Shown here: positions 31,212-58,539 of the stretch, piece after piece | Layout of the letters: each line of letters starts with the position of its first letter | Position numbering within the stretch: the stretch's first letter is position 1 | Assembly (NCBI RefSeq): GCF_030127105.1 | Contig: NZ_CP126161.1 | Span: 806,001 to 870,000 of the forward strand | Length of the DNA: 64,000 nucleotides | Reading direction: 5' to 3' | DNA from: Haloarcula pelagica | GTDB taxonomy: Archaea > Halobacteriota > Halobacteria > Halobacteriales > Haloarculaceae | Made by a program: the position numbers and the translations under genes | Notes under the pieces: generated by a model | The model's input: only the letters and a program-made list of their open reading frames with translations | Database searches by the model: none | Told to the model about the DNA's origin: nothing

Positions 31212-32015
31212 ATGAACCGAATCGGCGTCTCGGTGGCCGTCCTCGCACTCGTGCTCGCCGGCTGTAGCGGGTTCGGGGGTCAGGGAGCACCCGAGCGACT
31301 GACGCCAGCGCCGATCCCCACCGACGACGCCCAGTACCCGCCCGGCGTCTCCGAGCGGGCGATCGAGCCGGGCGTCCTGGCGCGCTCGCACGAGGGGTCG
31401 CTCCGGACGAGCAGCTACACGCTGACGACTCGCCAGCGAATCGAAGGCGACGACGGCGAGGTGTTACGCCGGACGAACCGCTCGCGGCTGGTGGCGAAAA
31501 ACGCCAGTAGCTACCGGGGCTACTTCCTCCAGAACACGACCGAGTACCCCAGCGCCGGCCTCACGACGCGGGTCGACTACTGGACCAACGGGAGCGTCGT
31601 CGCGACCCGGTACGAGGAGCGAACCGGCCGCCGGTCGCTGCACATGTGGCCCGCAGACAGCGTCGATTCGGTGACCGATCTGACCGGCCGCCAGCGGCTG
31701 GAAGCGGTGCTCGAAGCGGTCGACGTGCGAATCGCGCGCCACGAACCCGACGGCGATGTCGTCCTGGTGGGCTCGGACTTTGTCGACCGTGACCGACTCA
31801 TCCGGCCGCTGTTCGTCAGCCACCCGACGAACGTCAGCGTCCAGTTGCGGGTCCGCTCGGACGGGACGGTCGTCGCGAAACGGATCGGCTACGACGCCAC
31901 GCTCAGCGGCCGGGACATCCGGATCGTCCGGACGACACGCCTCAGTAACGAAGGCGAGACGACGGTCGACCGGCCGGCCTGGGTCGCGAACGCGACGATG
32001 GAGACGGAGGAATAG
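31212..32015 (+). CDS. Secreted lipoprotein of unknown function
   Basis: A 267-residue exported protein. A Sec-type signal (MNRIGVSVAVLALVLAGC) ends in a lipobox LAGC with Cys18 as the lipidated residue. The mature part has repeated beta-strand patterns and Asn sequons, and resembles haloarchaeal lipoproteins of the DUF7537 type (a number I recall but cannot verify), a fold related to LppX/LolA-like lipid carriers. Surface-exposed; ligand unknown. Confidence 0.8.
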   Translation: MNRIGVSVAVLALVLAGCSGFGGQGAPERLTPAPIPTDDAQYPPGVSERAIEPGVLARSHEGSLRTSSYTLTTRQRIEGDDGEVLRRTNRSRLVAKNASSYRGYFLQNTTEYPSAGLTTRVDYWTNGSVVATRYEERTGRRSLHMWPADSVDSVTDLTGRQRLEAVLEAVDVRIARHEPDGDVVLVGSDFVDRDRLIRPLFVSHPTNVSVQLRVRSDGTVVAKRIGYDATLSGRDIRIVRTTRLSNEGETTVDRPAWVANATMETEE

Positions 32016-32029
32016 CGGACCGTCGGTAG

Positions 32030-32145
32030 TTACGCGAGCTTCCCGATGTTCCCGTAAACCTCCGATTTACGGGCGCACGAAAAGTTGGCGTCGCCAACGT
32101 TTCGATGTTCTGGCGGTGGAACCGCCAGAGGACGAGAAACTGGCT

Positions 32146-32167
<22 letters not shown>
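32030..32167 (-). repeat. Tandem copies of the icd 3' end with hairpins
   Basis: The last 22 nt of icd (32146-32167, encoding NIEKLA and the stop) recur at 32089-32110 and 32030-32051, spaced 57 and 59 nt. Each unit is followed by an inverted copy of the gene end and a hairpin. Hairpins are 32051-32073 (one mismatch), 32078-32104 (one mismatch), 32109-32129 (9-bp perfect) and 32134-32160 (11-bp arms enclosing the icd stop codon). Loops are three bases except the last (five). Confidence 0.85.
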
Positions 32168-33408
<1,241 letters not shown>

Positions 33409-55740: not shown

Positions 55741-55811
55741 GGCGAGAACGGGTTGCTGTGGCGGTAGCTGTCGCGGTTGCGGTGGCCGGGAGCGCACTGC
55801 GTCGCGCGTGC

Positions 55812-55999
55812 CGGGAGACCACTGGTCTCCCGAACCTCGCGGTGTAACCGCGAGAACCCGGGGTAGGGCAGGGGTTGCCTGAGAGCATCCGGCGGCGAAG
55901 CCGCCGGTTCCCCGGACGCGAGGCATCGCCGAGCGTCCGGCCGTTTTTCCCCATGTTTTTGCGATGGGGGTCGCCACCGGCGACCCCGACGTAAAAGGT
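55812..55999. repeat. Hairpin-cluster repeat B between gatB and topA
   Basis: Five palindromes within about 180 nt: 55812-55832 (9-bp, loop ACT), 55836-55854 (8-bp, loop GTA), 55889-55907 (8-bp, loop GAA), 55912-55940 (8-bp outer stem, paired GA mismatches, inner GGC/GCC, loop ATC) and 55967-55987 (9-bp, loop ACC). The segment 55937-55961 matches the reverse complement of 2518-2542 at 20 of 25 positions. It ends AAAAGGTGG (55992-55999 region). No gene is present. Confidence 0.75.
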
Positions 56000-56004
56000 G
56001 GTCG

Positions 56005-58539
56005 CTAGTCGTCGAGCTGGGCCTGCCACTCCCGGACCTGGCTCTCGCTGACACCCTGGACCTCGGTGGCGACGGTGTCGGAGTCGGCGTCCCGGAGCGA
56101 GTCCAGATCGGCGACGCCGGCTGCTTCGAGTTTCTCGGCTGTCGCCGAGCCGATGCCGTTCAGGTCCTCCAGATCCTCGACGGCGTTGCGGGCCTTGTAC
56201 TCCTCGTAGTTACAGATGGGACAGCCAAGCTCCCAGGGGTCGTCGCTGTCGGGGTCGATCACGAGTTCGGGCAGGTCGTGCTCCTCGCAGTAGCTGTCGG
56301 TGACCTCGATGTCGCCGTTGCGGGGCAGCGGCAGCGAGTAGTCACAGTCGGGGTAGCGCGTACAGCCCACCAGCCGCGAGCCAGAGCGGAGGTGTTTGAT
56401 GGCGAGTTCGCCGCCTTCCTCGTCGTCGCTCCCTTCGGCGGCTTCGCCGCCTTCGGATCGTTGCTCCGGTGGAGCAACGCCACACTCGGGACACGGGCCG
56501 ATCACCTCGTCCTCGCTCTCGTCGGCGGCTTCGGCCTCACAGCGGGGGCAGCCGTGGACGAACGTGTCACGACCGGCCAGCATCTTCACGTGGTGCATGT
56601 CGTGGTCCTCACAGCGCTCCTCTAACACGAGCGGTTCGCCGGTCGAGGGCAGCGGGAGCGTGTGCCGACACTCCGGGAAGCCGTCACAGCCGACGAAGTA
56701 CGAGCCCTGGCGGGAGCGCCGGACGAGCAGGTCCTCGCCACACTCCGGACACGGGCCCAGGGTCTTGTCGGCTTTCAGGGACTCCTGGAGGTGGTCGCCG
56801 ATGTCCTCCCGGGAGTCGCGCAGTTCCTCGAAGACCCGGTCGAGCATCTCGCGGGACTCGTCGGTCACGTCGTCCAGCGTCGCCTCGCCGTTGGCGATGC
56901 GGGTCATATCAGCCTCCAGTTGGGCCGTCATCTCCTCGCTGACGACGTGGTCGGCGAACTCCTCGGCGGCCTCGACGACGGCCATCGCGAGCGTGGTCGG
57001 TCGGGGCGGATCGCCCTCGATGTACCCCCGGTCGTACAGTTTTTCGAGGGTGTTGTGGCGGGTCGATTTGGTCCCGACCCCCAGGTCCTCCATGGTCTGG
57101 ATGAGCCGCGACTGGCCGTAGCGACGCGGTGGCTGGGTCTGTTTGGCCTCGATCCGGACCTCGGGCATCGCCAACTCCTCGCCCTCCTCGACATCGGGGA
57201 CGTGGTTCTCGCTGGCGCTGGAGTACGGGTAGACGGCGTGGTAGCCCGGGTCGACCAGGCGCTTGCCGTTGGCCTTCAGCGAGCGACCGGCGGCTTCGGC
57301 GACGACGCGCAGGTGCTCCCAGGTCGCGGCCTCGGCCACGGTCGCGAAGAACCGCCGAACGATCAGTTCGTAGATCTCCCACTCGTCTTCCGAGAGGTCT
57401 GCCTTCGAGGGCAGCTCCCCCGTGGGGTGGATCGGCGGGTGGTCGGTCGTCTCCTCGTCGCCCCCCGTCGGGGCGATGTCGTCCTGTTCGAGCAGTGACT
57501 CGGCGTCCTCACCGAACGCGGAGCCGACGAACTCGTCCAGCAGCGCGTCGGGGTCGAGATCCTCCGGGTAGACCGTGTTGTCGGTTCGGGGGTAGGTGGC
57601 GTAGCCGGCGGTGTAGAGCTCCTCCGCGATGGACATGGCTCGCTGTGCCGAGTAGCCCAGCGAGCCGGCCGCCGAGATGAACGCGGTCGTGTTGAACGGC
57701 GTCGGTGGGCTGTCTGTTCTGGTCCGCCGGCGGACGCTCGTGACCGTCGCGGCGTCGGTACTCCGGAGGTCCTCGTATGCCGCCTCGGCGTCGGCTTCGT
57801 CCCAGACGCGTTCGGCCTCGGTGCCGTCGTCGTCGTAGAAGTACTGTGCTTCGAAGGTGACGCTGTCCTTCTGGAGGTCGGCGAACAGCTCCCAGTAGTC
57901 CTCGGGGTCGAACGCCTGGATCTCGCGCTCGCGGTCGACGATGAGTTTCAGCGTCGGCGACTGGACCCGGCCAACGGAGATGAAGTCGTCGCCCAGTTGC
58001 CGGGCCGACAGCGAGAGAAAGCGGGTGAGCGCGGCCCCCCACACGAGGTCGATGATCTGACGCGCCTCGCCGGCCGCGGCCAGATCGAAGTCGATCTCGT
58101 CGGGGTCGGCGAAGGCTTCGCGCACCTCCCGGTCGGTGATCGAGGAGAAACGGACCCGGCTCACGGGGATGTCGGTCTCCTCGCGGATGAGTTCGTACGC
58201 CTCCTTGCCGATGAGTTCCCCCTCGCGGTCGTAGTCGGTCGCGATGACGGCCTCGTCGGCGCGGCGGGCGAGCTGTTTGAGCGTCGTGACGATGTTCTCC
58301 TGGGTCGGCTCCTTGGTCACGTCGGCGGAGATGAGTTCGACCGGTTCCACGTCGCGCCAGTCGTTGTACTCGGGCGGGAAGTCGACGCCGACGACGTGGC
58401 CCGAGAGGCCGACGACGCGCTTGTCGCCCCAGCGGTAGACGTTGACGCCGTTTCGCCGCTCGCTGTCGGCGCTCCCCTCCGAGAGGATTTCGGCGATACG
58501 GCGTGCGGCGTTGTCCTTCTCGGTGATTATCAGCTCCAT
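56005..58539 (-). CDS. topA: DNA topoisomerase I (type IA)
   Basis: Relaxes negative supercoils. The 844-residue enzyme has a TOPRIM domain (IITEKDNAARRIAE, TDYDREGELIG), the catalytic Tyr316 in AGYATYPRTDN, EDLGVGTKSTRHNTLEKL, and a C-terminal set of zinc ribbons (CPECGEDLLV, CPRCEAEA, CPECG, CTRYPDC) plus a helix-hairpin-helix tail (ARNAVEDLEDLNGIGSATAE). Residues about 687-701 are an insertion (VAPPEQRSEGGEAAEGSD) in a zinc-ribbon loop, shared with metG. Confidence 0.96.
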   Translation of the reverse strand: MELIITEKDNAARRIAEILSEGSADSERRNGVNVYRWGDKRVVGLSGHVVGVDFPPEYNDWRDVEPVELISADVTKEPTQENIVTTLKQLARRADEAVIATDYDREGELIGKEAYELIREETDIPVSRVRFSSITDREVREAFADPDEIDFDLAAAGEARQIIDLVWGAALTRFLSLSARQLGDDFISVGRVQSPTLKLIVDREREIQAFDPEDYWELFADLQKDSVTFEAQYFYDDDGTEAERVWDEADAEAAYEDLRSTDAATVTSVRRRTRTDSPPTPFNTTAFISAAGSLGYSAQRAMSIAEELYTAGYATYPRTDNTVYPEDLDPDALLDEFVGSAFGEDAESLLEQDDIAPTGGDEETTDHPPIHPTGELPSKADLSEDEWEIYELIVRRFFATVAEAATWEHLRVVAEAAGRSLKANGKRLVDPGYHAVYPYSSASENHVPDVEEGEELAMPEVRIEAKQTQPPRRYGQSRLIQTMEDLGVGTKSTRHNTLEKLYDRGYIEGDPPRPTTLAMAVVEAAEEFADHVVSEEMTAQLEADMTRIANGEATLDDVTDESREMLDRVFEELRDSREDIGDHLQESLKADKTLGPCPECGEDLLVRRSRQGSYFVGCDGFPECRHTLPLPSTGEPLVLEERCEDHDMHHVKMLAGRDTFVHGCPRCEAEAADESEDEVIGPCPECGVAPPEQRSEGGEAAEGSDDEEGGELAIKHLRSGSRLVGCTRYPDCDYSLPLPRNGDIEVTDSYCEEHDLPELVIDPDSDDPWELGCPICNYEEYKARNAVEDLEDLNGIGSATAEKLEAAGVADLDSLRDADSDTVATEVQGVSESQVREWQAQLDD
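56437..56479. repeat. Palindromic element inserted in topA
   Basis: GGCGGC/GCCGCC with loop TTC (56437-56451), 7 bases, then 9-bp arms CGTTGCTCC/GGAGCAACG with loop GGT (56459-56479). Relative to the copy at 35637 the spacer is 3 bases shorter, which keeps the same reading frame and gives the same peptide order. It is located directly after CPECG of a zinc ribbon, in the loop between cysteine pairs. Confidence 0.85.

Follow-up and report, generated by a model that had tools for sequence, protein, structure and literature searches.

Stacked palindromic gene-end units at the 3' end of the isocitrate dehydrogenase gene in Haloarcula pelagica and other Halobacteria

The window analysed here, a stretch of 64,000 nucleotides from the genome of Haloarcula pelagica, carries on its minus strand the gene icd, whose homologues occur at 90-96% identity in 30 other Haloarcula genomes. 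The end of this gene and the array that follows it consist of the following features:

32146..33405, minus strand: icd, ORF for isocitrate dehydrogenase, 419 aa, with the end NIEKLA-TGA
32146..32166, minus strand: gene-end copy 1, AACATCGAGAAACTGGCCTGA, translated
32110..32166, minus strand: unit 1, 57 nt, with a class II hairpin B (covariance model E = 1.2e-22)
32133..32161, minus strand: hairpin A1, perfect 12-bp arms, loop CTGAA with the stop codon
32109..32129, minus strand: hairpin B1, TCTGGCGGT-tcc-ACCGCCAGA, 9-bp arms
32051..32109, minus strand: unit 2, 59 nt, with a class I hairpin B, in-frame stop lost (covariance model E = 2.6e-12)
32078..32104, minus strand: hairpin A2, CGAAACGTTGGC-gac-GCCAACTTTTCG, 11 of 12 pairs, untranslated
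32051..32073, minus strand: hairpin B2, CCCGTAAA-TCGGAGG-TTTACGGG, arms of about 8-9 bp
32030..32050, minus strand: terminal gene-end copy, AACATCGGGAAGCTCGCGTAA, NIGKLA-stop, presumed ancestral icd end
31212..32015, plus strand: convergent gene, a lipoprotein-like ORF; its end marks the limit of the array

Along the minus strand each unit runs from the gene end through its inverted copy (hairpin A) and a short linker to hairpin B, after which the next gene-end copy begins. The copies start at 32166, 32109 and 32050, and this bears out the preliminary description, which had reported a repeat at 57 and 59 nt coding NIEKLA-stop, NIETLAT and NIGKLA-stop; the second copy, AACATCGAAACGTTGGCGACG, lies 57 nt beyond the first and is the one that reads NIETLAT. 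The same construction had been ascribed to every unit, which is true of the two full units and untrue of the third copy, which is a gene end alone, followed by no unit. The icd stop had been placed in the loop of a hairpin with 11-bp arms: the TGA does lie inside a 5-nt loop, while the arms (32161-32150 and 32144-32133, 100% complementary) are 12 bp long. As the convergent gene ends at 32015, the array occupies the 130-nt gap between two gene ends. A 160-nt stretch containing it folds at -73.1 kcal/mol, against -49.9 +/- 3.8 kcal/mol for shuffled sequences (z = -6.05, 0 of 200).

A survey for such units took in the 3' ends of icd from 130 genomes, one per species: 30 of Haloarcula, 40 others from the family of Haloarcula and 60 from the families to which Halorubrum and Natronococcus belong. 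A threshold-based parser, some of whose calls are weak, found 61 units in 51 of the 130 icd tails (one in 43 genomes, two in seven and four in one) and none in the other 79; it missed some decayed or oddly spaced units, for instance at locus L029 and, as second units, at L027, L028 and L139, which were spotted by eye. Matches to a covariance model of the units also occur at icd in genomes of the families coded f2, f6, f7, f8 and f9. The units are about 54-61 nt long and follow each other at a short and regular spacing of about 46-61 nt. Hairpin B falls into four classes: class I, CCCGGAAATC-nnn-GATTTCCGGG; class II, CTCTGGCGGC-nnn-GCCGCCAG, with many covarying variants; class III, CTTCGCGGC-nnn-GCCGCGAAG; and class IV, GTCAGAACGC-nnn-GCGTTCTGAC. 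The first three are found in more than one family, the fourth in the Natronococcus family only. The units are a recurring cassette at the icd end across several halobacterial families. Comparison of the icd 3' regions of relatives, as had been proposed, shows that the number of whole units varies between close relatives, and the predicted gain of palindromic units with duplication of the gene end is upheld to that extent. An unvarying number of units, with the same repeats in distant genera, had been named as the pattern that would make insertion unlikely; the number does vary, and although other genera and families do have units, their occurrence there is variable, the hairpin classes change, and strong cases of the full pattern lie at icd.

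On an icd tree of the 30 Haloarcula genomes, built without the last 14 codons and weakly supported in the branches of its main clade, the number of units requires at least 10 changes and their presence at least 6; the starred branches alone force at least 3 to 5 changes per label. In a clade with a shared flank, the last gene-end copy and its flank match the corresponding sequence of relatives without units (their gene end plus flank) at 76-87% identity, whereas the first copy with the sequence downstream of it reaches only 49-60%. The T-tract lies a median of 31.5 nt past the gene end in genomes without units; in those with units its median distance from the last copy is 30.5 nt. The last copy, its flank and the T-tract being ancestral, the units sit upstream of the old gene end and supply the present one; for the window itself, the ancestral status of the terminal copy is presumed from this comparison in the related Haloarcula clade. 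A near-identical pair of loci shows such a difference: L008 has one unit and L013 none, and the junction falls inside GAGAA. In its 5' part the gene end of L013 agrees with the first copy of L008 (AACATAGAGAA), in its 3' part with the last (ACTC.CATAAGCGAGTC). This junction can be read equally well as an excision or as an insertion. As a separate observation, one genome that also has a full icd contains an icd remnant (L370, G366:C13:175429-175497) in which the first ~60 codons are joined to the last ~13, with a NIEELS-stop end and a decayed unit.

The kinship of the units bears on the question of how arrays grow. For every unit in the eight multi-unit arrays, some other genome offers a counterpart of 73-93% identity, whereas identity to the neighbours is 42-67%; class orders are II-I, I-II and III-I-II-III. 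The exception to this low identity within arrays is L226, whose units 1 and 4 are 96% identical with two units of other classes between them. These sequences argue against neighbouring units being simple local duplicates. In one pair from different families (L156 and L238) the units are 93% identical, while the adjacent coding DNA is 78% identical (74% at third positions); such cross-family identity could also reflect constraint instead of transfer. Palindromes between direct repeats are classic deletion hot spots. This fact is in favour of an origin by local slippage alone, in which a snap-back copy of the gene end was duplicated or deleted through mispairing of the flanking direct repeats and its copies then diverged; so are the resemblance of L013 to such an excision and the likeness of the two L226 units, as well as the ability of template switching to perfect quasi-palindromes (PMC7202029, PMC6649704). 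We nevertheless consider this explanation improbable. It accounts well for losses and poorly for gains, and most arrays do not fit it because adjacent units differ in hairpin-B class and are nearer to units of other genomes; the earlier suggestion of slippage of a palindromic unit meets the same difficulty in most arrays.

The units appear confined to icd, as the following searches indicate. Among 96 genomes, exact class II hairpins with the AA tail occur at icd only. The array is no product of chance: within 1.26 Mb (28%) of the genome of H. pelagica no other site has the succession of hairpin A, hairpin B and repeat with equally long arms, and the few other matches to this architecture there have arms of 8-10 bp and, viewed as a group, a coding-type look. 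A stop codon within a hairpin of at least 11 pairs recurs three times among 1,840 long ORFs, many of which are spurious. The same genome contains at L298, on the minus strand, an ORF with the end EMFERARGDA-stop, the stop of which lies in the loop of a 12-pair hairpin and the gene end of which is unrepeated. When a home-made covariance model, whose E-values are rough, was run over the whole genome to which the window belongs, the two units (and the opposite strand there) were followed by a next match at 8e-5, and the matches from there on are general hairpin pairs. In 99 genomes the strongest matches lie at icd, at an icd paralogue or at the icd remnant of G366, except for L359, a strong match on a short contig where icd is unidentifiable; strong matches initially taken as lying outside icd were rejected, as they proved to be icd paralogues or the remnant. 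The weaker matches are ordinary hairpin doublets, which are present elsewhere in haloarchaeal intergenic DNA.

Several candidates for a wider relationship were dismissed. A dispersed MITE or REP element was rejected, as a 166-nt query found no strong second copy in its own genome, and the array had no match in Rfam 15 at the gathering score. A link was considered between class I and the dispersed GTGGTTCGA double-hairpin family, both of which have the stem CGGAAATC; the frame and outer stem of that family differ, and the likeness is therefore left as a common-stem resemblance. A member of this haloarchaeal family (GTGGTTCGA..arms..TCGTCATC..second hairpin) lies in the window at 2423-2481 on the minus strand, and its copies in plasmids (L285-L288) are located between genes, where the outer stem GCCTCGGGGTC/GACCCCGAGGC would form a three-way junction. 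Two other structured repeats came to light: a hairpin doublet CGAGGGAGCnAAGCTCCCTCGTTCCTTCACGGCGAAGCCGTGAAGA that follows TTTTACAGGGAATG and recurs in near-identical form at two sites far apart in one genome (L375 and L376; G379:C1:79128 and 2593515), and a non-coding stretch of ~261 nt with several hairpins between gatB and topA (window 55751-56010), which recurs inverted 10 kb off, at about G000:C1:871811-872071, with 97.7% identity.

The nearest haloarchaeal counterpart of the units is the PATE of Haloquadratum, a terminal-only IS605-type element of similar size (~50-60 bp) that is non-coding, has two palindromes and is present or absent as a whole (PMC3119063). The icd units likewise have two near-terminal palindromes, no terminal inverted repeats and too little length to code, in agreement with the definition of PATEs (PMC3119063), and it is conceivable that they are a transposase-free mobile element of this kind (comparable to a core-deleted PATE of 52 bp with two palindromes), mobilised in trans with the icd end as its target. 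We judge this very unlikely. PATEs cause no target duplication, whereas the units have 17-21 nt of the gene end repeated on either side; PATEs have multiple dispersed copies, whereas strong model matches to the units occur only at icd-type sites and the units themselves at a single locus; and one of the two palindromes, hairpin A, is built of host coding sequence including its stop.

Phage 21 and e14 use the end of icd in Escherichia coli as their att site. Elements of this type are known to replace gene ends: their DNA supplies the last icd codons and displaces the old end, as the units do. The units might accordingly be scars of integrative elements (viruses or plasmids with a tyrosine integrase) having an att site at the icd end, a proposal to which we give hardly any credence, since neither a unit nor icd-end sequence was found in the viral contigs, phages and plasmids searched, and the short, regular spacing of about 46-61 nt leaves no integrase element between the repeats, with no larger insertion among the icd tails. 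Compared with these prophages, a unit measures 57 nt and not kilobases, has no integrase, and is palindromic and tandem. With the REP/BIME and REPIN elements of bacteria the units share the arrangement of short hairpins in tandem at gene 3' ends; many dispersed extragenic copies of one palindrome define REP/BIME, but the icd units are undispersed, the sequence of their hairpin A is icd's own, and they have several classes of hairpin B. The units thus lack a defining feature of each of PATE, REP/BIME and att site.

What keeps the arms complementary can be approached through covariation, which is strong. In an ungapped set of 15 units, used in place of a MAFFT alignment of mixed units in which some arms misalign, 14 of 21 pairs have changed on both sides, and there are 50 double-changed cells against 14.7 in shuffled data and 1-4 with the register slid. 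In hairpin sets that were picked partly for pairing, the paired fraction is 95% for hairpin A and for hairpin B alike; swapping partners lowers it to 70% and 56% respectively. Hairpin A is kept in untranslated downstream units despite loss of the in-frame stop (unit 2 of the window; unit 3 of L226). In L230, L257 and L227 the gene end and the right arm now match poorly, as if the gene end had been exchanged. RNA helices under selection show an excess of G-U pairs over A-C mismatches. Over 114 helices we counted 14 G-U and 26 A-C cells (p = 0.08), the direction being opposite to that of RNA selection, and pair changes are mostly from one Watson-Crick pair to another. Strong covariation without a G-U excess points to correction of the arms at the DNA level over selection on RNA; Watson-Crick swaps are expected if template switching lets one arm be copied from the other, or if the structure that matters is a DNA hairpin. 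Template switching is known to turn quasi-palindromes perfect (PMC7202029) and has been proposed for coding palindromes in Nematomorpha (PMC6649704). In both of these systems, as here, the arms evolve together and the palindrome may include coding sequence, but the icd palindrome covers a stop codon and forms part of a repeated cassette that also includes another hairpin.

The main rival to an exchange of cassettes is a role of the RNA at the icd mRNA end, in which the double hairpins would be selected on the mRNA as terminator helpers or guards against 3' decay in the 3'-UTR and their copy number would tune expression. The covariation, the placement of the units between the stop and the T-tract, and the hairpins of the array that remain paired once untranslated all suit this explanation, as does the 59% termination given by hairpin S12 in a Haloferax volcanii reporter (PMC7237163). 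We still regard it as unlikely: G-U pairs do not exceed A-C mismatches (14 versus 26), 79 of the 130 genomes have no called unit, and the main intergenic terminator in H. volcanii is a T stretch, with no general accessibility signal (PMC7237163). Nor do the units look like intrinsic terminators, which have a G+C-rich hairpin directly before a run of T: T5 or longer occurs inside units in 6 of 51 genomes, and the T-tract is located behind the last copy and not directly after the hairpins of the units. The function as a terminator or stabiliser that the preliminary description had thought possible gained no support, the T-tract standing ~31 nt behind the last copy with or without units and the helices having no G-U excess.

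The explanation that we prefer, at a probability of roughly 0.5, is that the icd 3' end is an icd-specific array of exchangeable gene-end cassettes, exchanged by recombination in a short core and kept palindromic at the DNA level. A cassette would comprise the last ~6 codons of icd with the stop, their inverted copy (hairpin A) and hairpin B, and would be bounded by the core AACATCGAGAA. Whole cassettes would come and go as the gene-end core of the resident gene recombines with a second such core, carried by incoming DNA or by a neighbouring unit. Each addition would push the old end with its terminator downstream and give the enzyme new last codons and a stop; as the enzyme merely receives these, the addition would be harmless to the protein. 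We suppose that units arrive through inter-species recombination and not by a dedicated transposase or integrase; recombination of haloarchaea across species boundaries is known (PMC4500145). The core, at ~10 nt, is short for homologous recombination, and extra help is therefore assumed, possibly from hairpin-stalled forks or from longer shared icd sequence upstream. The perfect arms would be kept largely at the DNA level, by template-switch correction or as a DNA hairpin, with the coding arm as the master, and any effect on the mRNA 3' end would be secondary. Gain of foreign units, deletion between direct repeats and correction of arms would jointly cover the features observed: whole-unit boundaries, copy-number variation, the ancestral position of the last copy, non-local kinship of units and covariation. 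The survey, covering one genome per species, yielded neither a donor form, a circle or an enzyme nor a pair of strains. A bolder version, which we offer tentatively, is that there is a class-wide pool of mini-cassettes of ~57 nt, devoid of coding capacity and restricted to the 3' end of a single housekeeping gene, which would insert serially through exchange within the gene-end core, on each occasion replacing the final codons and stop of the host gene.

We found no description of stacked icd gene-end cassettes in the open-access literature, and priority is therefore not established. In several halobacterial families the finding places the final codons and the stop of a conserved metabolic gene inside an exchangeable palindromic cassette. 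As a marker, the array varies in copy number at a fixed position and can be typed across strains by simple PCR, and it lets the growth and shrinkage of tandem hairpin arrays be followed. Because one arm is coding, the icd hairpins can moreover serve as a natural system for separating RNA-level selection of hairpins from DNA-level correction of palindromes.
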